From positions 620,001 to 684,000 of the forward strand of contig NZ_AMRX01000001.1 of NCBI RefSeq assembly GCF_000300815.1: a DNA stretch of 64,000 bases, read 5' to 3'. Both the position numbers and the translations under genes were made by a program. Source of the DNA: Gayadomonas joobiniege G7. Lineage in GTDB: Bacteria > Pseudomonadota > Gammaproteobacteria > Enterobacterales > Alteromonadaceae. Numbering within the stretch: position 1 is the first letter of the stretch; every line of letters starts with the position of its first letter. Under the pieces are notes generated by a model, which saw nothing but the letters and a program-made list of their open reading frames with translations, was not told the DNA's origin and did no database searches. This document shows, in pieces, positions 988-22,808 of the stretch.

Positions 988-1338
<351 letters not shown>

Positions 1339-7698: not shown

Positions 7699-7983
7699 TT
7701 ATTCCTGCTCAGTTAATTTTTTTGTTTCAGTCGGTTCGTCTTGCAGGCGAGCTTCTAAATCAGACATTTTTTGTTCTAAATCGGCTAATTTTTCTCGGGT
7801 ACGCATCAGTACTCTGGTTTGCACATCAAATTCTTCACGAGTCACCAAATCAAGCTGAGACAATTTATTTTGCAAAATTTGTTTGGTTTTGCTTTCCATA
7901 TCATCGGCGAATTGGCGCACACCAGGCGGCAATGATTCATTGATTTGTCTGGCAATTTCTTCAAGTTTTTTGGGGTTTATCAT
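7699..7983 (-). CDS. ubiK: Ubiquinone biosynthesis accessory factor UbiK
   Basis: Small protein of 94 residues (former YqiC/BMFP family) that helps the Ubi complex make ubiquinone under oxygen. It begins [14 protein letters not shown] and has the family pattern [20 protein letters not shown], an amphipathic helix and coiled coil. The open frame reaches back to 8019, but homology begins at the ATG at 7983. Confidence 0.92.
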
Positions 7984-8019
7984 AATTTGTCTTCTGTTCT
8001 CTAAACTGACTGGCAGCAA

Positions 8020-8134
8020 GTATAGCCATTATATTATCTGATTACGACTGGGATGCAATTGAGGTTCAAGTTTAACTTTATTATTGCGTTTTTTTAATGG
8101 CAAAAAAAATATTAAATAAATTAAAAATTATTTT
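8020..8134. other. AT-rich gene-free stretch upstream of candidate sRNA 1
   Basis: Very AT-rich DNA with runs of A and T and no credible reading frame. It probably holds the ubiK promoter (minus strand) and the promoter of the first candidate small RNA (plus strand). I could not fix -35 and -10 boxes with confidence. Confidence 0.4.
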
Positions 8135-8236
8135 GAACTAAAGCGAATGCTTGCTGGTCTTTATTAATGTGTTTTATGTGTTCCTGTTGTATCTCCCTTG
8201 TACACCGCCGTTGGTTTCCTTCGGCGGTTTTTTTTT
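8135..8236 (+). ncRNA. Candidate small RNA, copy 1 of a tandem pair
   Basis: A roughly 100-bp unit beginning GAACTAAAG and ending in a textbook terminator (CCGCCG, loop TTGGTTTCCTT, CGGCGG, then nine T). The next unit (8308-8410) is nearly identical over the last 70 bases. No reading frame is conserved, and the terminator orientation (plus) is opposite to both flanking genes, so it does not end either one. A free-standing small RNA is the simplest reading. I do not recognise a known RNA family. Confidence 0.55.
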
Positions 8237-8307
8237 GCCTATTACACCCAGCCCATGTTTATATTGTTAGCGCGAATAAAAAATTTAAAAAAATAGCAAA
8301 TAATTAG

Positions 8308-8410
8308 GAACTAAAGTGCAATGGCTTGAGTCTTTATTAATGTGTTTTACATGTGTTCTTGTTGTATCTCCCTTGTACACCGCCGTTGGTTTCCTTCGGC
8401 GGTTTTTTTT
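8308..8410 (+). ncRNA. Candidate small RNA, copy 2 of a tandem pair
   Basis: Second copy of the unit at 8135-8236. From TCTTTATTAATGTG to the terminator the two differ by only a few bases, while the DNA between the units is unrelated. The hairpin is CCGCCG/CGGCGG followed by eight T, and the T run touches the stop codon of the convergent response regulator. Conservation of the internal segment TTGTATCTCCCTTGTAC between copies suggests a seed or protein-binding region. Confidence 0.55.
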
Positions 8411-9287
8411 ATTCTGCGTCTAATATTTTTATTGCAGCGGCCGCCGCAGCGGTTCGGTTTTCAACAGCTAACTTTTTAAATACCATTTCTAAATGTTTAT
8501 TGACCGTTCGCGGGCTCATTGACAATATTTGCGAGATTTCCCAATTTGTTTTGGCATGTGATAGCCAGAATAAAACTTCCGCCTCGCGTTTTGTTATTGG
8601 CAAAGCGGCTTGCAGCAGCTCAGCGGTCGGCGCTGGTTTATGTTTGCTTAAGCGCAATAAAAAATGATCTTGCTCTTGGCGTTCATAGTGTAAGGTGAGC
8701 TGTGGTTGGCTGTTAGATAATACCAGAGGCTGCTGATGGCCGCTTTGCAGCCAGCTATCTATCTCTGTTTTTAAGTGCTGCCAAATATCGGCTTGTTGTG
8801 CAAAAGAGTTAGAGATGAGTTCGTACACTTGCGGCGTTGCCCAGGCCATTTCGCCCGATTTGTCTACGCTAAATACGTTTTTACCCGCATGATCTAGCGC
8901 ATTTTGCGCACTGCGAGCCAAACGAGCAGTGCTTAGATGTGCTTTAATACGGGCCAATACTTCATCTGGCGCAATAGGTTTAGTGACATAATCTACGCCG
9001 CCGGCATTAAAGCCTCTGACCACATCGTCTGAATCTGTTAGCCCCGTCATAAAAATCACAGGTACATTGGGCAGCATTTTTTTAAACTGTCGGCAGGTTT
9101 CAAAGCCATCCATATTGGGCATAACCGCGTCCATTAAAACAATTTCAGGGGTTACTTTTTCTGCAATCGATAAGGCTTGTGTTCCATCTAAAGCCACCAA
9201 CGCCGTATAACCTGCTTGGTTAAGCGCTACATTTAACATACCCAAAGATTCGGGCGAGTCGTCGACAACCAGTACTATATTATCCAT
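8409..9287 (-). CDS. Response regulator, REC + LuxR-type HTH
   Basis: Two-component regulator of about 292 residues. An N-terminal receiver domain has the acidic pair D-D-S and the phospho-acceptor Asp in V-L-M-D-A-V-M-P-N-M-D-G (about residue 53), and the conserved Lys in V-T-K-P-I-A. A middle segment of about 80 residues carries no motif I recognise. The C-terminal LuxR/FixJ helix-turn-helix is I-T-K-R-E-A-E-V-L-F-W through S-P-R-T-V-N-K-H-L-E. I prefer the ATG at 9287, which overlaps the kinase stop; an in-frame ATG at 9299 is also possible. It is the evident partner of the fused permease-kinase. Confidence 0.9.
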   Translation of the reverse strand: MDNIVLVVDDSPESLGMLNVALNQAGYTALVALDGTQALSIAEKVTPEIVLMDAVMPNMDGFETCRQFKKMLPNVPVIFMTGLTDSDDVVRGFNAGGVDYVTKPIAPDEVLARIKAHLSTARLARSAQNALDHAGKNVFSVDKSGEMAWATPQVYELISNSFAQQADIWQHLKTEIDSWLQSGHQQPLVLSNSQPQLTLHYERQEQDHFLLRLSKHKPAPTAELLQAALPITKREAEVLFWLSHAKTNWEISQILSMSPRTVNKHLEMVFKKLAVENRTAAAAAAIKILDAE

Positions 9288-12200
9288 TGTTCGCTTCAAT
9301 TTTATTGTGTATAAATTGACAGATTTTTTGAAAATGACAGCGTTTGCTCAATTCTAATAACTGCTGATGATCGTCCTCTGAGATTTTATTTGCCTGAACA
9401 TATGTTTCTAATGCTTCACTAAACCCTGATAAATAGCCAATCTCTGCAGGGGACAATAAATTTTGCCAGTCGTCATTCAACATCTTTTCAGCCACCGCTC
9501 GCTGCTCAGGTTTATCTGGCATTGCGGGCGGCTGGATTTTTTTATTTTCTTCAATGTATTGATACATCCACTCTAAGTTGAGTTGCTGACCAATTTTTAT
9601 TAATAAGGTATCTAGATTAATAGGTTTTGCAAGATAATCGTCGTGATAGCGAGCATTTTGCTCAGTGTTTTGCGTTTCTCGTGCATTGGCCGAAATCATA
9701 ATAATCGGCATTATGTGTTTATCTTGACGAATTTTTTCGGCTAATTGCCAACCACTCATTTGTGGCATCATGATATCCATTAAAATGAGATCAACCGATT
9801 GTTTGGCGACTATATCAAGTGCTTGCATAGGATCGGCCGCCAAACTTAAATTAAAACCCAACGGGGAAAGAATATCTTCCATTAACCTGCGCTGGTTTGG
9901 ATCATCGTCAACAACCAAAATATTGCGGCGATCCCCATCATAGGCAATTGCACGGGCCGGTTGGTAGTCATTTTCTTTGGTAAAATTAAACACCCCAGGC
10001 AACATCAGACTGAGTTTAAAAGCGCTGCCTTGACCTAATTGGCTGCGTAAACTAATTTCACCGCCCATGAGTTCAGCTAATGACTTAGAAATAGTTAAAC
10101 CTAACCCTGTGCCTTTAATCGCTCGGTTTTTATCACTCTGCACACGTTCAAAGGGTTTAAAAATATTTTTTTGATCTGTCTCGCTGATGCCAAGTCCAGT
10201 GTCTTTAATTATAAAGTGCGCAACTTCATTGCGGTAATTAACTTCTAAGGTGACTTTGCCTTGTTCAGTGAACTTGATGGCATTAGATAATAAATTAATC
10301 AGTATTTGGCGAAACCTTTGTTTGTCTATGGTGACAGTTTCTGGCAAACGCTGACAAGGTTTGTATTCAAAGTCTATATCTTTATTGCGAGCCTGCATGC
10401 TAAACATGTCTACTAGTTGATCTAAAAAGGTATGTATTTGCAGCGTATCTTTTTGCAAATGCATGCGACCTGCTTCAATTTTAGATATCTCTAACAAACC
10501 TTCTATTAAATCAGCTAAATGTTCGCCGTTACGCTTCATGATAGCAATAGACTCACGTTGCCGGCTAGGAATTGCATTGTCTTGGTTTAACAGTTGTGCA
10601 TAACCCAAAATAACGTTTAGCGGCGTTCTTAACTCATGGCTTAAACCCGTTAAATATCGGCTTTTTGCTTGGTTGGCTGACTCGGCCGCCTCTTTTGCTT
10701 TTTGCAGTGCTTGAAAGGTATTCTGGTGCGCTTGAATTTCACTTTCGAGGATACGAGTTTGTACCCGCAGCTCTTTTAACGCTAAGCGGTTACTGCTGCG
10801 TGCTAAAATAAACAACCAGCTGACAATGCCAATGATGATCAGCAATAAAAAGAATATTTTAATCAGAGTTAGCCCAAATACGCGTTTTAGATCGGGTTCA
10901 TAAGCGGGTATTTGCAGGTAAATTAAAAACAAGATAGCAGCCCCAATAAGGCTTAATAATAAGGTTACACCAATAAATTGGGCCGGTGGTGAGCTTAATT
11001 TTTTTAATAATCGAGTGGTTAAAAAGCGCTTAAAAAACTGCTGTGCTTGGGCAAATAAAGTTGCCTCTTCGCGGCAAACATCACCACATCTAACATCCAA
11101 ACTACAACATAATGAGCAAATGGCACGGCCATAAGCAGGACAAAAAGTCATGTCTTCGCTATCAAATTCATTTTCACAGATATGGCAAGTATGATGGGCT
11201 TGAATATGTAGGTCGTATTGCTGTTTGTTTTTGACCAGATAATAACGGCCTTTTGTCCACCAGCCGATCACAGGCACGGTTAAAAAAGGTAAAAAAAACG
11301 CCAAATAAGAGGCCGCTGCTTGCGCATATTCACCGTACCAGCCAAAATGTGCGGTAAAGCCGATAACTGACGCAATTAACATAGAGCCGACACCAACAGG
11401 GTTAACGTCATACAAATGAGAACGCTTAAACTCTATGCCCTTAGGGCTTATGCCTAAAGGTTTGTTAATTACTAAATCGGCAGTCACCGAACTTAACCAA
11501 GCTAAAACAAACACCGAATAAACTTGCAGCATACTTTCAATGGTTTGGTAAATACCAAGTTCCATTAGTAATAAGGCGATCGCAACATTAAATAACATCC
11601 AGACAACCCGCCCAGGGTGGCTATGGGTGACCCTGGAAAAAAAGTTTGACCAAGCCAGTGAACCCGCATAGGCATTGGCAAGATTGATTTTTAATTGCGA
11701 TATCACAACAAAAGCGGCGGCTAATACAATGGCCAAGGTTTCGTTACTAAACACATAACCAAACGCGACCATATACATGTGCGCTGGATCATCGGCGACA
11801 TTTGCCGGTAATCCTTGTTTTAGCGCAAGCCAAGCCAAGAAAGAGCCTAAAAAGAGTTTACCGGCACCAAAAAAAATCCAACCTGGACCTGCAATAATTA
11901 ACGAGAACCACCACTGTAATTTTTTTTCTTTGGGTTTTTCTGGTAAAAAGCGTAAAAAATCAACTTGCTCACCAATTTGTGCGACCATGGCTAATAGCAC
12001 AGCACTGGCTGCACCAAATAACAAAAAGTTAAAACTTTGCCCGCTTGCACCCGCTTCGCCAGTAAAGTTAAACCACTCGGTAAATTGATTATCAGGATGA
12101 CTAAAAACGTAAATCAGCGGAACTATCTGTAACAGGATCCAAAGCGGCTGGGTAATGACTTGAAAGCGGCTAATATTGGTAATGCCGTGCGTGACCAAGG

Positions 12201-12684
12201 GGATCACAACCAGCGCGCTGATAACATAACCCACAGCAAGCGGGATGCCAAAAAGCAGCTGCAATGCCATTGACATAATGGCAGCTTCGAGGGCAAAAAA
12301 GATAAAGGTGAATGAAGCATAAATAAGCGAAGCTATGGTTGAGCCTATGTAGCCAAACCCGGCACCACGGCTTAATAAATCTATGTCTACGCCATAACGA
12401 GCAGCGTAATAACTAATGGGTAAACCACTAAAAAATATCACTAGGGCAACGGCTAAAATGGCCCACGCGGCATTAACAAAACCGTAGTTTAACGTGATTG
12501 CACCGCCAATGGCTTCTAACACCAAAAACGACACTGTGCCTAATGCCGTGGTAGCAATCCAGCCCGGTGACCAACGGCGAGCCCGTCGAGCGGTGAAGCG
12601 CAGGGCAAAGTCTTCCATCATTTCGTTTGCAACAAGCTTATTGTAAGTGCGGCGGGTAAAACGAATTTTGGGGTTGGAATGCAT
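9280..12684 (-). CDS. NCS1-type permease fused to hybrid histidine kinase
   Basis: A 1134-residue sensor. Residues about 30-490 are a 12-helix permease of the nucleobase:cation symporter-1 type (R-R-W-S-P-G-W-I-A-T-T-A-L-G start). A cysteine-rich segment follows (residues 497-540, eight or more Cys, zinc-ribbon-like), then two more helices (565-630), a coiled linker, HisKA with phospho-His 683 (L-S-H-E-L-R-T-P-L-N), HATPase (N-box near 796-804, D-T-G-L-G-I-S and G-T-G-L-G-L-T-I-S) and a receiver with Asp 970. The layout parallels CbrA/CrbS, where an SLC5 transporter is the input. It overlaps its response regulator and is divergent from the urea porin/urt/ure cluster, so a urea or purine-breakdown compound is a plausible signal; that is inference. 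Confidence 0.92.
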   Translation of the reverse strand: MHSNPKIRFTRRTYNKLVANEMMEDFALRFTARRARRWSPGWIATTALGTVSFLVLEAIGGAITLNYGFVNAAWAILAVALVIFFSGLPISYYAARYGVDIDLLSRGAGFGYIGSTIASLIYASFTFIFFALEAAIMSMALQLLFGIPLAVGYVISALVVIPLVTHGITNISRFQVITQPLWILLQIVPLIYVFSHPDNQFTEWFNFTGEAGASGQSFNFLLFGAASAVLLAMVAQIGEQVDFLRFLPEKPKEKKLQWWFSLIIAGPGWIFFGAGKLFLGSFLAWLALKQGLPANVADDPAHMYMVAFGYVFSNETLAIVLAAAFVVISQLKINLANAYAGSLAWSNFFSRVTHSHPGRVVWMLFNVAIALLLMELGIYQTIESMLQVYSVFVLAWLSSVTADLVINKPLGISPKGIEFKRSHLYDVNPVGVGSMLIASVIGFTAHFGWYGEYAQAAASYLAFFLPFLTVPVIGWWTKGRYYLVKNKQQYDLHIQAHHTCHICENEFDSEDMTFCPAYGRAICSLCCSLDVRCGDVCREEATLFAQAQQFFKRFLTTRLLKKLSSPPAQFIGVTLLLSLIGAAILFLIYLQIPAYEPDLKRVFGLTLIKIFFLLLIIIGIVSWLFILARSSNRLALKELRVQTRILESEIQAHQNTFQALQKAKEAAESANQAKSRYLTGLSHELRTPLNVILGYAQLLNQDNAIPSRQRESIAIMKRNGEHLADLIEGLLEISKIEAGRMHLQKDTLQIHTFLDQLVDMFSMQARNKDIDFEYKPCQRLPETVTIDKQRFRQILINLLSNAIKFTEQGKVTLEVNYRNEVAHFIIKDTGLGISETDQKNIFKPFERVQSDKNRAIKGTGLGLTISKSLAELMGGEISLRSQLGQGSAFKLSLMLPGVFNFTKENDYQPARAIAYDGDRRNILVVDDDPNQRRLMEDILSPLGFNLSLAADPMQALDIVAKQSVDLILMDIMMPQMSGWQLAEKIRQDKHIMPIIMISANARETQNTEQNARYHDDYLAKPINLDTLLIKIGQQLNLEWMYQYIEENKKIQPPAMPDKPEQRAVAEKMLNDDWQNLLSPAEIGYLSGFSEALETYVQANKISEDDHQQLLELSKRCHFQKICQFIHNKIEANNG

Positions 12685-12813: not shown

Positions 12814-12935
12814 CGTCATTCTACGTAGATCCTATAGCTGTTTTACGAATATTAACCCTTGCCAAATAGCGCAATACTAAGTCTCGCTGAAAACACAGAT
12901 ACACACTTAAAAACAACAAATACAGGATGACAACC

Positions 12936-13880
12936 ATGAAAGTAGCAAAACTTAAAAGTTTGACCACAGCCGTACTGATGGCGACCTCTGTTGCAGCACC
13001 AGCTGCGTTAGCGGCAGACGATTTTCAATTGTCAGATAAGCTTGCGGTAACTGGTTTTATTGATATGTCGTATGTTTATACCGATTTCGACGGTGCTGAT
13101 TCGGTTTCGTCATCCAGCTTAGACCAATTTGAAATTGACCTCTTATATAGCTTTAGCGACAAGTTAAATGCTCAGGTTGATCTTGAATACAAAGATTCTT
13201 ATGGCGCAGTTGATTTAGAACAAGCATTTTTCACTTATGACTTAACTGACGAATTTATGGTAAAAGCCGGTCGATTTTTAAGTTATTCAGGTTGGGAAAC
13301 TGAAGAGCCAACCGGTTTATTCCAGTATTCAGGAACTGGTTACGCCCCTTATTTTTATGGTTATTACCAACAAGGTGTTTCTGGTTTATATAGCACAGAC
13401 ACATTTTCTGCCGCACTTTCAATTGTAAACAGTCCTTATAATCCAGAAGACAGTGACAGCGAAAACCCAGGCTACGAAATTATGTTGGCACTAACACCCA
13501 CTGATTCAATCACGGTTAAAGGTTTTTATTTAGAAGATGGCGATACCAATACCGCGAATTTCTGGGCGGCCTATTCTGAAGGTCCATTAACCTTGGCGGC
13601 TGAATACAACCTGGGTGATTACGCAGGCGGTGGTGAAGGTTCTGGTTATTTATTAATGGGTAACTATGCCTTTGATAATGCCGGTATTACGTTGCGTTAC
13701 CACGATTTTGAAATTGAAGATGCAGCAGGCAACGTGGTTGACGACGGTAGCGCCATTACCATCTCACCAAGCTATACCGTGAGCGAAAACTTATTAATGG
13801 TATTTGAATACCGTATGGACGACAGCGATACCAATGGCGATAGCGATACTATCGCAGTTGAGGCTTTAATCACTTTTTAA
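12936..13880 (+). CDS. Outer-membrane porin (urea-cluster associated)
   Basis: About 314 residues. A signal peptide (M-K-V-A-K-L-K-S-L-T-T-A-V then A-P-A-A-L-A, cleaved before A-D-D) is followed by alternating beta strands rich in Tyr, Phe and acidic residues, ending in an aromatic terminal strand (A-L-I-T-F), the outer-membrane insertion signal. I chose the ATG at 12936 because CAGGA lies at good distance; the ATG at 12927 is too close to it. It is the first gene of the urea cluster and probably lets urea or short amides through the outer membrane. The role is inferred from position. Confidence 0.85.
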   Translation: MKVAKLKSLTTAVLMATSVAAPAALAADDFQLSDKLAVTGFIDMSYVYTDFDGADSVSSSSLDQFEIDLLYSFSDKLNAQVDLEYKDSYGAVDLEQAFFTYDLTDEFMVKAGRFLSYSGWETEEPTGLFQYSGTGYAPYFYGYYQQGVSGLYSTDTFSAALSIVNSPYNPEDSDSENPGYEIMLALTPTDSITVKGFYLEDGDTNTANFWAAYSEGPLTLAAEYNLGDYAGGGEGSGYLLMGNYAFDNAGITLRYHDFEIEDAAGNVVDDGSAITISPSYTVSENLLMVFEYRMDDSDTNGDSDTIAVEALITF

Positions 13881-13954
13881 TTTAAACCAGCTTAATCAAT
13901 CATAGGCACTCAATGGCGGGTGCCAATTTTGAACAAATACAAAAGGATAGACAG

Positions 13955-15238
13955 ATGAAACTGAAAAAACTCATTGCAGCCGGCACTATTGTCGCAAGTG
14001 GTTTAATGACTTCTATGACGTACGCCGCCGAAACCATTAAAGTTGGCGTATTGCACTCGTTATCAGGCACTATGGCAATCTCTGAAACCACATTAAAAGA
14101 TACCGTATTAATGATGATTGAAGAGCAAAACAAAAAAGGCGGCTTATTAGGTAAAAAATTAGAACCTGTGGTTGTTGACCCAGCATCTAACTGGCCTTTA
14201 TTTGCTGAAAAAACACGAGAGCTTTTATCAAAAGATAAAGTGGATGTTATTTTTGGTTGTTGGACTTCGGTTTCTCGTAAATCTGTTTTGCCGGTTGTTG
14301 AAGAATTAAACGGTTTACTCTTTTATCCCGTTCAGTACGAAGGCGAAGAATCTTCGCGCAACGTATTTTACACAGGTGCTGCGCCAAATCAGCAAGCCAT
14401 TCCAGCGGTTGATTATTTAATGAATGATATCGGTGCAGAGCGTTGGGTATTGTTAGGTACTGACTATGTTTATCCGCGTACTACCAACAAAATTTTAGAA
14501 GCTTATTTAAAAGCTAATGGGGTTGCCGATAAAGACATCATGATTAACTACACCCCATTTGGTCATTCAGATTGGCAAAGCATTGTTTCAGAAGTTAAAA
14601 AGTTTGGCTCTGCAGGCAAAAAGACAGCGGTTGTTTCAACCATTAACGGTGATGCAAACGTACCATTTTACAAAGAGTTAGGTAACCAGGGCATCTCTGC
14701 TGAAGATATTCCGGTGGTTGCATTTTCGGTTGGTGAAGAAGAGCTTTCTGGTTTTGATACAACGCCACTGGTTGGTCACTTAGCCGCTTGGAACTACTTC
14801 CAAAGTGTTGAAAGCGACGCCAACGAAGAATTTATTGCCACATGGCGCGAATTTATTGGTGACGAAAAACGTGTAACCAATGACCCAATGGAAGCGACTT
14901 ATATCGGCTTTAAAATGTGGGCCAAAGCAGTTGAAAAAGCCGGTACAACTAACGTAGATGAAGTTGAGCAAGCCATGATAGGTATTACCGTGCCTAACTT
15001 AACGGGCGGTACTGCAGTGATGAATAGCAACCACCATTTATCTAAGCCGGTATTAATTGGCGAGATTCAAGACAATGGTCAATTAGAAGTGGTTTGGGAA
15101 ACTGCTGGTACTGTTATTGGTGATGCTTGGTCTGACTACTTAGATAGCTCTAAAAACCTGATTTCAGATTGGACCAAACCAGTTAACTGCGGCAACTTTG
15201 ACATTAAAACTGCCAAATGTTCTGGCCAGCAATTTTAA
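13955..15238 (+). CDS. urtA: Urea ABC transporter, substrate-binding protein UrtA
   Basis: Periplasmic urea-binding protein, 427 residues. The signal peptide M-K-L-K-K-L-I-A-A-G-T-I-V-A-S-G ends near T-Y-A-A. The mature part begins E-T-I-K-V-G-V-L-H-S-L-S-G-T-M-A-I-S-E, typical of UrtA/AmiC-type leucine-binding-fold proteins. G-C-W-T-S-V-S-R-K-S and F-Y-P-V-Q-Y-E-G are characteristic of UrtA. A good ribosome site (AAAAGGATAG) precedes the ATG at 13955; the open frame upstream to 13913 is not needed. Followed by urtBCDE and urease genes. Confidence 0.97.
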   Translation: MKLKKLIAAGTIVASGLMTSMTYAAETIKVGVLHSLSGTMAISETTLKDTVLMMIEEQNKKGGLLGKKLEPVVVDPASNWPLFAEKTRELLSKDKVDVIFGCWTSVSRKSVLPVVEELNGLLFYPVQYEGEESSRNVFYTGAAPNQQAIPAVDYLMNDIGAERWVLLGTDYVYPRTTNKILEAYLKANGVADKDIMINYTPFGHSDWQSIVSEVKKFGSAGKKTAVVSTINGDANVPFYKELGNQGISAEDIPVVAFSVGEEELSGFDTTPLVGHLAAWNYFQSVESDANEEFIATWREFIGDEKRVTNDPMEATYIGFKMWAKAVEKAGTTNVDEVEQAMIGITVPNLTGGTAVMNSNHHLSKPVLIGEIQDNGQLEVVWETAGTVIGDAWSDYLDSSKNLISDWTKPVNCGNFDIKTAKCSGQQF

Positions 15239-15277
15239 GCAAAACAAAAATAAATAATTAAAAAACTCCCAAATAGT

Positions 15278-15315
15278 ATCTTGTCTGTTTAAGTTCAGAC
15301 GTACACAGGCAAGAT
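15278..15315 (+). promoter_or_regulatory. Stem-loop between urtA and urtB
   Basis: ATCTTGTCTGT pairs with ACAGGCAAGAT (11 bp with one G-U) around a loop of 16 bases. No T run follows, so it is not a plain terminator. Such hairpins after a binding-protein gene often protect the 3' end of its mRNA and lower expression of the downstream permease genes; that role is inferred. Confidence 0.5.
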
Positions 15316-15357
15316 GCTTCCCAACAATGTAAAACACAAAGTTGAAGGAATATCGCA

Positions 15358-16986
15358 ATGGTGCGCAGATTCTGTTTTATTTTAACTTTGCTGATGATGG
15401 TAGTGTGCCGACCTGCGTTTGCAGCAGACGAGGTAGATAGCCTGATAAATCAGCTTCCGCACAAAACACTCCGCAATATTACTCCGCTATTGGATCAAAT
15501 TGCCGGCCACAAAGATGAAAAAGTTCGTTTTGTTTTAACCGAAATTTTAAATGGCGACCTCTATTACCTTAAATCAAACAGACAGGTGGTTAGTGTACGC
15601 AAAAGTGATTCTGGAGACTATAAGTTAACTGACGTACTTAGCCTAAGTGTATTAACTCAGGACGGCAAACCTAGCATTAAAAAGATCCGTACGAGTAATC
15701 GAATTCGTAGCCATATCCGCGGTTTGTTAGCGCAAATCGACCTAACTCACGATAGCAAAGCCGTTCGTTTAGCCGCGGTACAAGAAATTTTAGAAAACAT
15801 AGATGAAGATACAGTTGCGCTGATTAAAAAGCATCAAAGCAACGAACAGGATTCAGAGATTAAAGAATTAATGGCAACCGCTGTTGCTTTGTATCAACTA
15901 AATGAAGGGGCCGCTAAAGAAAAAATTGCAGCGGTAACAGCACTTAAAGAAAGTTTGCAGCCTGAAGTTCGTAATGCGATGCAGGTGCAATTAAACCGCT
16001 TAGCTGAAATAGAAAAAACTGAATTAACTAAAGATGACCGCGCGCTACAAAAAGCATTAACCAGTGCGGTAGACAGCATTAAACAAAAGCGTAAGTTTTA
16101 TGAGTTTATCGAAAACTTATTTTTTGGTTTAAGTTTAGGCTCGGTACTGTTATTGGCCGCGATAGGTTTGGCGATCACCTTTGGGGTGATGGGCGTTATT
16201 AACATGGCGCATGGTGAGATGATCATGTTGGGTGCTTATACCACTTATGTGATCCAGCAAATGTTTCCGCAGTGGATAGACTATTCGTTATTTATTGCCA
16301 TTCCTGCTGCTTTTATTGTATCTGGCAGCGTGGGTATTTTAATTGAACGCGGCGTTATCCGCTTTTTAAAAGGTCGTCCATTAGAAACCTTATTAGCAAC
16401 CTTTGGTATCAGCCTCATTTTACAACAAGTTGTACGCAGCGTATTTTCACCGTTAAACCGCACCGTAGCTGCCCCTGAATGGATGAGTGGATCGTGGCAA
16501 ATTAACCCTATTTTTTCGTTAACCTTTAATAGGTTGTACATTATTTTATTTGCTTTAGCGGTATTTTTTGCATTGCTTGCGTTTATGAAGCGCTCTTCAC
16601 TGGGTTTGCACGTACGCGCTGTCGCGCAAAACCGAGAAATGGCGCGCGCATTAAGTGTACGTAGTGACCGAGTGGATGCCATCACCTTTGGGTTAGGTTC
16701 GGGCATTGCAGGCATCGCGGGTGTGGTACTGAGCCAGTTAACCAACGTAGGTCCTAACTTAGGTCAGTCTTATATTATTGATTCATTCTTAGTGGTTGTA
16801 TTTGGTGGTGTAGGTAACCTGTGGGGTACGCTCGTAGCGGCCATGTCGCTCGGCACTATTAATAAATTCTTAGAGCCCGTCACTGGATCTGTGTTGGCCA
16901 CTATCATAGTGCTCGTTGGCTTAGTATTGTTTATTCAAAAACGCCCTAAAGGTCTGTTTCCACAAAAAGGGAGAGCAGCAGAATGA
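15358..16986 (+). CDS. urtB: Urea ABC transporter, permease UrtB
   Basis: 542 residues. A cleavable signal peptide (ending A-F-A-A-D) is followed by a helical extracytoplasmic N-terminal region to about residue 240, an extension common in proteobacterial UrtB, and then a LivH-type permease (F-F-G-L-S-L-G-S-V-L-L-L-A-A-I-G onward) with eight or so helices. G-V-M-G-V-I-N-M-A-H-G-E is the family motif. GAAGGAA precedes the ATG. It overlaps urtC by 4 bases. Confidence 0.96.
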   Translation: MVRRFCFILTLLMMVVCRPAFAADEVDSLINQLPHKTLRNITPLLDQIAGHKDEKVRFVLTEILNGDLYYLKSNRQVVSVRKSDSGDYKLTDVLSLSVLTQDGKPSIKKIRTSNRIRSHIRGLLAQIDLTHDSKAVRLAAVQEILENIDEDTVALIKKHQSNEQDSEIKELMATAVALYQLNEGAAKEKIAAVTALKESLQPEVRNAMQVQLNRLAEIEKTELTKDDRALQKALTSAVDSIKQKRKFYEFIENLFFGLSLGSVLLLAAIGLAITFGVMGVINMAHGEMIMLGAYTTYVIQQMFPQWIDYSLFIAIPAAFIVSGSVGILIERGVIRFLKGRPLETLLATFGISLILQQVVRSVFSPLNRTVAAPEWMSGSWQINPIFSLTFNRLYIILFALAVFFALLAFMKRSSLGLHVRAVAQNREMARALSVRSDRVDAITFGLGSGIAGIAGVVLSQLTNVGPNLGQSYIIDSFLVVVFGGVGNLWGTLVAAMSLGTINKFLEPVTGSVLATIIVLVGLVLFIQKRPKGLFPQKGRAAE

Positions 16987-18110
16987 TGTTAGACAAATTA
17001 AAAAAGCTGGGTAGTTTACCCGTGGTTGTGGGCTGCTTATTTATCTCGACCCTTTATGTGGCTATCTGTAACCTGGCCTTCCCAGAAGGCTCTGCACTGC
17101 ATGTAAGCACGTATACGGTTACCTTGTTTGGTAAATACTTGTGTTACGCCTTGTTAGCATTAGCCGTTGATTTAGTTTGGGGTTACTGCGGTATTTTAAG
17201 TTTGGGTCATGGTGCATTTTTTGCCTTGGGCGGTTACGCCATGGGCATGTATTTAATGCGCCAGATAGGTGATCGCGGCGTTTATGGTAACCCTGAGCTG
17301 CCTGACTTTATGGTGTTTTTAAACTGGGATAGCTTGCCTTGGTATTGGGCCGGTACTGACAGTTTTATCTGGACCCTATTTTTAGTATTAGCTGGGCCTG
17401 GTTTATTGGCATACATTTTTGGCTCTATGGCATTTCGCTCGCGAGTCAGTGGGGTGTATTTATCAATTATGACGCAGGCGATGACCTACGCGCTATTATT
17501 GGCCTTTTTCCGCAACGAGATGGGTTTTGGTGGCAACAATGGTTTAACCGATTTTAAAGACATTTTAGGGTTTTCTTTGCAGTCTGATACCACTCGGGTA
17601 GTGCTGTTTGCGGTCACTGCGACTTTTTTAGCGTTAGGGTTTGCGCTGTGCCACTTTATTGTGAACTCAAAAATGGGCCGCGTGGTCACTGCCATTCGCG
17701 ACTCAGAAAATCGAGTACGTTTTATCGGTTACAAGCCAGAGCATTATAAAGTTTGGATTTTTGTTGTATCGGCGATGTTAGCTGGGGTAGCGGGTGCCTT
17801 ATATGTACCTCAGGTAGGTATTATTAACCCAGGCGAATTTTCACCCCTAAACTCAATTGAAATTGTTGTTTGGGTAGCTATTGGCGGACGCGGCTCTTTA
17901 TACGGTGCCATTATTGGTGCGCTGGTGGTCAGTTACGCTAAAACCCGATTTACTGCAATCATGCCAGAAGCCTGGTTATATGCGCTGGGTGGTTTGTTTG
18001 TGCTGGTGACCTTGTTATTACCTAAAGGTTTAGCCGGTTTCGTGCCGCAACTTATCGAAAAATATAAACAAAATAAAACAGATAAAAAACCACAGGAGGT
18101 ACAGTCATGA
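16983..18110 (+). CDS. urtC: Urea ABC transporter, permease UrtC
   Basis: LivM-type inner-membrane permease, 375 residues, second membrane subunit of the urea importer. Typical motifs: D-L-V-W-G-Y-C-G-I-L-S-L-G-H-G-A-F-F-A-L-G-G-Y and the coupling segment A-I-R-D-S-E-N-R-V-R-F-I-G-Y. It overlaps urtB and urtD by 4 bases each, so the permease and ATPase genes are translationally coupled. Confidence 0.96.
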   Translation: MMLDKLKKLGSLPVVVGCLFISTLYVAICNLAFPEGSALHVSTYTVTLFGKYLCYALLALAVDLVWGYCGILSLGHGAFFALGGYAMGMYLMRQIGDRGVYGNPELPDFMVFLNWDSLPWYWAGTDSFIWTLFLVLAGPGLLAYIFGSMAFRSRVSGVYLSIMTQAMTYALLLAFFRNEMGFGGNNGLTDFKDILGFSLQSDTTRVVLFAVTATFLALGFALCHFIVNSKMGRVVTAIRDSENRVRFIGYKPEHYKVWIFVVSAMLAGVAGALYVPQVGIINPGEFSPLNSIEIVVWVAIGGRGSLYGAIIGALVVSYAKTRFTAIMPEAWLYALGGLFVLVTLLLPKGLAGFVPQLIEKYKQNKTDKKPQEVQS

Positions 18111-20796: not shown

Positions 20797-21105
20797 ATGA
20801 TCCCCGGAGAAATAAAAAGCCCGGCTGGGCACCATGAGCTGAACGTTGGCCGCCAAAAAATAACAGTTGAGGTGGTTAACGCAGGTGACCGTCCTATTCA
20901 GGTTGGCTCGCACTATCATTTTTACGAAACGAATCCAGCGCTAAAATTTGAGCGCGAAAAAACCAAAGGCTATCGCTTAGATATAACCGCCGGTACCGCA
21001 GTGCGTTTTGAGCCGGGCCAGCAGCGCGAAGTGACTTTAGTGGCATACGTGGGCCGCCGAAGAATATATGGTTTTCGGGGTGATGTGATGGGAGATTTAG
21101 ACTAA
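20797..21105 (+). CDS. ureB: Urease beta subunit UreB
   Basis: 102 residues from the ATG at 20797 (M-I-P-G-E-I), preceded by TAAGGAAA. The frame is open back to 20779, but that overlaps ureA and lacks homology. Motifs: [15 protein letters not shown] and the C-terminal R-R-I-Y-G-F. Stop and ureC start overlap as TAATG. Separate ureA and ureB genes are the usual bacterial arrangement. Confidence 0.97.
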
Positions 21106-22808
21106 TGGCTTCAATTGATAAACACGCATATGCACATATGTTTGGCCCAACTGTGGGTGATAAAGTACGTTTAGGCGATACCGAGCTATGGATTTCACCA
21201 GAAAAAGACTATACCACCTATGGTGAAGAGGTAAAATTTGGTGGCGGTAAAGTGATCCGTGACGGCATGGGGCAAAGCCAAGCAACCAGTGCCGAAACCG
21301 TTGATTTAGTGATCACCAATGCGCTGATCTTAGATCACTGGGGCATAGTTAAAGCCGATATTGGCATTAAAGATGGCCGCATTGCTAAAATTGGTAAAGC
21401 GGGCAACCCAGATATTCAAGACAATATCGACATCGAAGTGGGTCCAGGCACCGAAGTTATTGCCGGCGAAGGCCAAATTATTACCGCCGGTGGCATAGAT
21501 GCGCACATTCACTTTATTTGCCCTCAGCAGGTAGACGAAGCGCTGATGTCTGGCGTGACCACCATGATAGGCGGTGGCACAGGCCCTGCGACCGGCACCA
21601 ACGCAACCACTTGTACCTCGGGCCCTTGGTATATTCATAAAATGCTGCAGGCGACGGATGACTTGCCAATGAATTTTGGCTTTTTAGGTAAAGGCAACGC
21701 CAGCTTACCCGATGCGCTAGTGGAGCAGATTGAAGCCGGCGTTTGCGGCTTAAAATTGCACGAAGATTGGGGTACTACGCCGCAAGCAATAGATAACTGT
21801 TTAGATGTTGCTGAGCAATACGATGTGCAAATAGCCATTCATACCGATACTTTAAACGAATCTGGTTTTGTCGAAGACACCTTAGGTGCATTTAAAGGCC
21901 GCACCATTCATACCTACCATACCGAAGGGGCGGGTGGTGGTCACTCGCCAGATATTATTGTTGCGTGCGGGCATGAAAATGTGTTGCCGTCTTCAACCAA
22001 TCCTACTCGTCCGTACACCATTAATACGATAGACGAGCATTTAGATATGTTGATGGTTTGCCATCATTTAGATCCCTCTATTCCTGAAGACATCGCTTTT
22101 GCCGATTCGCGTATTCGTAAAGAAAGTATCGCTGCTGAAGATATCATGCACGATATTGGCGCGATTAGCATGATAGCGTCCGACTCACAAGCCATGGGTC
22201 GGGTCGGCGAAATGATTTGCCGTACTTGGCAAACCGCTCATAAAATGAAAGTACAACGTGGCCCACTGGCACCAGATAACGAAGAAAATGATAACTTTAG
22301 AGCTAAGCGTTATGTTGCCAAATATACAATAAATCCGGCGATCAGCCATGGTATTAGCCACGAAGTTGGCTCAATTGAAGTAGGTAAGCTAGCCGATTTA
22401 GTGTTATGGAAACCGGCATTTTTTGGTATTAAACCTGCCATGATCCTAAAAAGTGGATTTATTGCAGCCGCGCCAATGGGCGATGCAAATGCCTCTATTC
22501 CAACGCCGCAGCCAGTATATTACCGACCTATGTTTGGTTCGCTGGGCAAGGCGACAGGGCAAACATGCATGACCTTTTTATCGCAAGCCGCGGTGGACAA
22601 ACAAGTGCCAGAAAAAATTGGCATTAAACGTTTAATTGGCGTGTGTAAAAACACCCGCAATATCGGCAAAAAAGACATGATCCACAACGGCGAAACGCCA
22701 GAGGTTAAAGTTGATCCACAAACTTATGAAGTGACCGCCGACGGTGTTTTATTAACCTGTGAACCCGCCACCGAATTACCGCTGGCACAAAGATATAGTT
22801 TATTTTAA
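21105..22808 (+). CDS. ureC: Urease alpha subunit UreC (catalytic)
   Basis: Catalytic subunit, 567 residues, splits urea into ammonia and carbamate. Nickel-site and active-site elements are all visible: H-I-H in G-G-I-D-A-H-I-H-F, the carbamylated lysine in [25 protein letters not shown] and the flap region M-V-C-H-H-L-D with its cysteine and histidine. No key residue is missing, so the enzyme should be active once loaded with nickel. Confidence 0.98.

Follow-up and report, generated by a model that had tools for sequence, protein, structure and literature searches.

The enterobacterial small RNAs (sRNAs) MicA and RybB are found in genomes that also encode Hfq, and Rfam holds families for both of them as well as for VrrA. 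MicA and RybB are ~70-80 nt long, end in a terminator and have a sigmaE-type promoter directly upstream, with published boxes reading GGAACTTTT and GTCAAA (Papenfort et al.; PMC1804206). VrrA of Vibrio is longer, at ~140 nt, represses ompA and has a sigmaE consensus promoter that is conserved with the sRNA across the genus (PMC2628432). In Fusobacterium, whose FoxI and FoxJ (~156 nt for FoxJ) act in a host without Hfq, the sRNAs share a -10/-35 motif with the rpoE promoter and carry a C-rich seed, and their overexpression lowers rpoE (PMC11005410). StsR of Rhodobacter, an sRNA of 72 nt, forms a negative loop by pairing with rpoE mRNA close to the start of that mRNA, and its own expression depends on RpoHI/RpoHII and not on RpoE directly (PMC8307010). 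Duplicated siblings are common among sRNAs, and tandem or multi-copy, near-identical genes are described for PrrF1/2, OmrA/B, AbcR1/2 and Qrr (reviewed in PMC4211561). Finally, the duplicated CrcZ and CrcY of Pseudomonas are tied to a sensor-kinase system and depend on sigmaN and CbrB (PMC6296734).

We have analysed a stretch of 64,000 nucleotides from Gayadomonas joobiniege G7, referred to here as the window, which probably carries two tandem copies of an sRNA gene that is largely confined to Catenovulum. Each copy has an RpoE (sigmaE)-type promoter and a terminator of its own, and together they probably form an RpoE-dependent RNA arm of the membrane-stress response. On present analogy the sRNAs are best read as Hfq-type RNAs that are analogous, not homologous, to MicA, RybB, VrrA and FoxI. 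They resemble MicA and RybB in length, in the sigmaE-type promoter directly upstream, in the terminator and in the Hfq-bearing genome, but differ from them in sequence and have no Rfam match to them; only here are the genes multi-copy and tandem, and omp targets are at most predicted here. As with VrrA, the sigmaE-type promoter is conserved together with the sRNA across the genus, although the length differs and Rfam gave no sequence match to the VrrA family. The motif shared with the rpoE promoter and the C-rich seed recall FoxI and FoxJ, which come from an unrelated phylum, while the predicted pairing with rpoE resembles the loop of StsR, an sRNA from another bacterial class. In their tandem, multi-copy and near-identical arrangement the units are like PrrF1/2, OmrA/B, AbcR1/2 and Qrr, whose sequences differ from those described here and which are not known to be sigmaE-driven. 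A literature search combining Catenovulum and sRNA returned no study, among the records it covered, on the sRNAs of this genus.

Results

The two units occupy positions 8135-8236 and 8308-8411, both on the plus strand. They share a gapless direct repeat of 68 nt (8168-8235 and 8343-8410) with 94% identity and a spacing of 175, and their upstream halves (8091-8143 and 8264-8316) are 72% identical. In unit 1 an A/T-rich tract (8091-8134) precedes an RpoE-type -35 box, GAACT (8135-8139), the same box as in the rpoE promoter of all eight species, which is followed after 17 nt by the -10 box GTCTTT (8157-8162). The predicted sRNA of ~68 nt (8169-8236), with its start placed ~6 nt after the -10 box, contains the block UGUGUUCC (8177-8184), a predicted complement of the rpoE ribosome-binding site, then the conserved core TTGTATCTCCCTTGTA (8187-8202) with its Shine-Dalgarno (SD)-complementary CUCCC, and closes with a rho-independent terminator (8205-8236) in which the stems CCGCCG and CGGCGG (8205-8210 and 8222-8227) are followed by T9. 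Unit 2 has the same order, with a similar A/T-rich tract (8264-8307), GAACT within GGAACTAAAG (8308-8312), GTCTTT 17 nt further on (8330-8335), a predicted sRNA of ~69 nt (8342-8410), the core TTGTATCTCCCTTGTA (8362-8377) and a terminator (8380-8410) with the same stems (8380-8385 and 8397-8402) and T8. Seven terminator-like sites lie between 7500 and 9000, including those of both units, compared to 2.2 in shuffles.

A first-pass annotation of this DNA had described two near-identical units with perfect terminators, pointing against both neighbours, and we confirm this, as the flanking genes for a BMFP protein (7699-8019) and a LuxR-type response regulator (8409-9299) are both on the minus strand. 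The T-run of unit 2 overlaps the stop codon of the regulator gene, and a mechanical GTG frame (8353-8667, plus strand) overlaps unit 2 and runs opposite the response regulator. Coding potential was rejected since a 1-nt indel (CC-TG / CCTTG) separates the conserved blocks, so that no frame is kept over 17 aligned copies, in line with the earlier view that the units contain no reading frame. The annotation had also put the units at about 100 bp, but some 33 nt at the head of each are better taken as promoter, which would leave an RNA of ~68-69 nt.

A third copy in the same genome (C2:599083-599152, minus strand) lies 29 kb from the pair and adjoins an MFS-like transporter gene. Blastn detected copies in six of the seven congeners; genomes from 52 other genera gave none. 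A covariance model built from 17 copies and searched over 295 genomes of the family matched 16, namely all eight Catenovulum genomes, G. joobiniege included, and eight others, among which core and promoter are both present only in G080 and G062. The proposal that these are duplicate sRNAs, which was to be judged by a covariance search in relatives, is thus supported by a family conserved in 8/8 Catenovulum genomes, with compensatory changes in the terminator and a conserved promoter. The Catenovulum genomes hold 2-6 units each; a third, weak match in G003 (E 0.0087) was not accepted as a member, being a terminator without core or promoter. A search at the level of the order with strict filters (394 genomes, including that of G. 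joobiniege) gave 13 places in 12 other genomes, and on inspection none of the 13 had a promoter-placed GAAC...TC[TAG] match; in two of them (L137 and L139) GAACT boxes can be made out by eye, which makes these places leads at most. A pattern scan of named genomes returned ten stretches, five in four Catenovulum strains (C. agarivorans DS-2 and YM01, C. sp. 2E275 and C. sediminis WS1-A) and the other five in unrelated organisms.

The gene order at the window locus (BMFP, sRNA, LuxR regulator, kinase) recurs in G006, G003 and G002, in each case with a single copy, and hence the window pair looks like a local duplication. All eight species have a copy no more than about 2.2 kb away from an MFS gene, and in G004 this copy belongs to an array of six promoter-bearing tandem units with a period of about 194 bp (stretch L086, 6196-7161, minus strand). 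G007, G005 and G001 have two further copies each at other places. As a separate observation, the three inner G004 units that were read have lost CTCCC, and their core is changed to TATCTCATGTCTCAC, as if these units were drifting or specialising. The distant member in G062 (stretch L090, 5137-5344, plus strand) directly follows a Spot 42-like RNA, a match of 37.2 bits that is under the gathering score of 80, and is flanked by polA (DNA_pol_A) and an engB-like gene for a small GTPase.

The near-invariant UGUUGUAUCUCCC is the block best conserved among the 17 copies, with a UGUGUUCC-like sequence before it and a hairpin and then a U-tail after it, and the inner pairs of the hairpin vary with compensation. 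In the terminator, 98% of cells are paired and 14 cells are changed on both sides (0/500 shuffles as high). Its covariation score was also above all 500 shuffles, with much lower values for slid controls. Of the five measures of covariation, however, those that count pairs changed on both sides and further pair types were not above shuffles. When the 21 predicted RNAs are folded, the core stays open, with a mean unpaired probability of 0.76.

The motif GAAC[TC]-N15-17-[GC]TCT[AT] is present within 160 nt upstream of 19 of the 21 copies, compared to 14 of 12710 background windows (0.11%), which overlap one another and leave out the units of the window itself. The two copies that lack the strict motif, those of G080 and G062, both read GTCA, and a looser form ending TC[TA] is found at all 21 copies against 81 of the 12710 background windows; when the background is restricted to A/T-rich windows, the strict or looser form occurs in 1 of 925. 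The rpoE gene, identified by TIGR02939 above its cut-off in all eight species, is in each of them preceded by GAACTTTTT-N16-GTCTAT (that is, GAACT-N16-GTCTAT) after an A/T-rich tract. A promoter matrix trained only on these eight rpoE promoters gave the 21 sRNA upstream regions a median score of 12.6 (range 1.9-20.3); 2 of the 1354 control windows score that high. With their GTCTTT boxes and a spacing of 17, the promoters of the window units are among the weaker ones, at 10.4 and 7.7 (12 and 36 of the 1354 controls do as well), and those of G080 and G062 do not rise above background, with 481 and 663 controls at their level or higher. The motif also matches the published sigmaE boxes GGAACTTTT and GTCAAA (PMC1804206).

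Genome-wide, GAACT-N15-18-GTCTA is not enriched (16 matches, against 29 for a reversed control pattern). An exact GAACT-N16-GTCTA is found 258 nt upstream of surA in the G. joobiniege genome, and the same element precedes a SurA-like start, named by eye, in C. sediminis. We set surA aside as support for the motif, since the G. joobiniege site lies in codons of lptD (TVESRIGL) and coding constraint may therefore explain it. The same genome contains ten ECF-like matches besides rpoE, so the motif might also serve another ECF factor; when five of these ten genes were checked, four had no motif near the start and one had two weak GAACA-type matches. An hfq gene is present in the genome. Taken as a whole, the promoter evidence is best read as pointing to control by RpoE.

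The units match no Rfam family at gathering score, in a search of the units that extended to E up to 5, and the highest match below threshold was suhB/mmgR (20.3 bits, 41 required). No Rfam match to PrrF was found in the window. Elsewhere in the window, 21258-21537 on the minus strand matches the Rfam family 5_ureB_sRNA (120.6 bits) and is antisense to the start of a likely urease alpha-subunit gene at 21105 (plus strand), and this match may reflect only the conserved coding sequence of the other strand.

Discussion

CrcZ and CrcY carry CA motifs (AAnAAnAA), and CbrA has an N-terminal solute-symporter domain fused to its kinase. The first-pass annotation had seen a CbrA-like permease-kinase beside the units and had drawn the comparison with CbrAB-CrcZ, while noting that the sequence is not CrcZ, and indeed no Rfam CrcZ match was found for the units. 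If the comparison held, the sRNAs would be controlled by the adjacent sensor kinase and LuxR-type regulator and would sequester a translational repressor. It can draw on the tandem arrangement, which is that of PrrF or CrcZ/CrcY, and on the copy lying between the BMFP gene and the regulator in four of the eight species (G. joobiniege, G006, G003 and G002). Furthermore, other receiver-domain genes are found near the sRNA at the MFS locus, both in G. joobiniege (Response_reg-GGDEF; L021, 7771-9009, minus strand) and in G004 (Response_reg; L086, 7293-7895, plus strand), and the MFS locus of G002 has a kinase/regulator match of 30-33%. However, the presence of receiver genes near the sRNA in these three genomes also means that such neighbours are not rare. 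In three congeners the regulator and kinase of the window stay side by side (66-75% identity); this pair was found at one sRNA locus only, while copies elsewhere have the same promoter. The regulator is of the LuxR/NarL type (GerE), not the NtrC type, and lacks a sigma54-interaction domain, no sigma54-like site was found on the plus strand of the units with up to two mismatches allowed, and the CA motif occurs in none of the 21 predicted RNAs. The permease part of the claim was not borne out either, as residues 1-535 of the kinase, a stretch that is hydrophobic by eye, match no transporter Pfam at E up to 5. Thus a link to the two-component system, left unsupported by these findings, appears very improbable. 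We consider it just as improbable that the units are a mobile or structural repeat, such as a terminator-bearing element, with no regulatory role. The family is multi-copy and forms a tandem array in G004, as such an element might, but there are only 2-6 units per genome, a copy keeps its place by the MFS gene in all eight species, and promoter and core are conserved while the terminator stems vary with compensation. The membrane-stress response, rather than the neighbouring two-component system, is probably where these lineage-specific, multi-copy sRNAs belong. We also observed that the regulator and hybrid kinase genes adjoin genes for a BBP2 porin and a likely urea ABC transporter (8409-12684, minus strand, and 12927-18110, plus strand).

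What an RpoE-driven sRNA would act upon is less clear-cut, and two compatible readings deserve comparison. It is quite conceivable, at somewhat below even chances, that the sRNA mainly represses mRNAs of outer-membrane proteins (TonB receptors and porins) in the manner of MicA, RybB, VrrA and FoxI, and by that analogy such targets are expected. An RpoE-type promoter fits sRNAs of this kind, and both the best single pairing in the G. joobiniege genome and the best ortholog pair involve TonB receptors. In this 3.9-Mb genome, in which we note 49 matches to the TonB-receptor plug domain, 46 of the 49 starts were used, and these pair better than other starts (P(T<O)=0.626, against 0.548, sd 0.038, for shuffled RNA; 147 of 150 shuffles at or below 0.626, about 3/150 as extreme); at -22 kcal/mol or lower there are 9 of 46 TonB-receptor starts and 16 of 253 others. 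In C. sediminis, however, where 30 of 49 starts were used, there is no enrichment (P 0.548 and 0.546; 93 and 83 of 200 shuffles as high), and complements of the core show no genome-wide excess (54 sites, 3 of them self, against 51 in the control). Of the 54, 30 were inspected (3 self), and one lies just before a plausible start, that of an Agarase_CBM protein, while chance would give about one such site on a rough estimate. Its ribosome-binding site (L191, 1501-1529, plus strand) reads GAAGATACAACAAGGAG, which is close to the core complement and could be chance. The urtC start, second in the G. joobiniege ranking, was dropped as a candidate: its site AAGGGAGAGCAGCAG is within urtB codons, G003 keeps only AAGGGAG, and the other two stretches yielded no orthologue.

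The other reading, which we hold to be possible with slightly less confidence, is that the sRNA pairs with the ribosome-binding site of rpoE itself and closes a direct negative feedback, with UGUGUUCC in the sRNA and GGAGCGCA in the rpoE leader as predicted partners. Among individual mRNAs, rpoE appears to be the likeliest predicted target. Seven of eight rpoE leaders, from related species and thus not independent counts, contain GGAG[CT][AG][CT][AG], the full complement (G-U allowed) of UGUGUUCC/UGUGCUCC, whereas the slightly wider pattern GG[AG][AG][CT][AG][CT][AG] occurs in 10/298 and 5/160 other starts (about 3%), and in 6/118 and 4/37 (5-11%) of those with a strong SD (GGAG/AGGA). The G004 leader lacks the full 8-mer, and unit 2 of the window carries UGUGUUCU, one base off. 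The rpoE duplex energy is matched by 13 of 529 other starts, drawn from sampled stretches, and with folding included 14 of 532 bind as well, or 6 of 171 among GGAG/AGGA-site starts (two of three sRNA copies being used for G005, G007 and G001). None of 600 position-permuted RNAs did as well over the eight leaders, but the permutation removes the anti-SD sequence of the RNA as well, and complementarity to an SD is in itself generic. Moreover, rpoE was chosen post hoc from 28 ortholog pairs, where it is second behind a TonB receptor, with equal pairing energies in both species compared, and an initial ranking of G. joobiniege genes had placed it only 16th of 299. In the open-licence PMC literature StsR came up, and we recognised there no case of an sRNA that is made by RpoE and targets rpoE directly. 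The more elaborate proposal, in which a lineage-specific sRNA made from several tandem or dispersed RpoE promoters pairs with the rpoE ribosome-binding site in a dose-amplified self-shutoff, we hold to be somewhat less likely again. An 8-mer complement of the same kind, GGAGCACA, is also seen at the ribosome-binding site of a gene for a PII-like protein in the window (988-1326, minus strand).

Returning to the RpoE-dependent sRNA as our preferred explanation, envelope stress would lead RpoE to transcribe an RNA of ~70 nt from each unit, and the single-stranded 5' half of this RNA (UGUGUUCC...UGUUGUAUCUCCC) would present two sequences complementary to SD sites. Together with Hfq, the sRNA would pair with the ribosome-binding sites of mRNAs and block their translation, and copies at several loci would raise the sRNA dose. 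The DNA itself provides the promoter match, the conservation, the terminator, the predicted accessibility of the core and the rpoE and hfq genes; drive by RpoE, binding of Hfq and repression by the sRNA are the three steps that we infer.

The units thus probably represent a new lineage-specific, multi-copy sRNA of the sigmaE kind that is driven by RpoE. If this is true, part of the envelope-stress response of Catenovulum is non-coding and matches no known enterobacterial, vibrio or fusobacterial family, and the same design may possibly have had another independent origin. The copy number of 2-6, with its tandem arrays, would offer a natural series on why sRNA genes duplicate, and a direct loop from sRNA to sigma factor can be tested through the pairing predicted with rpoE.
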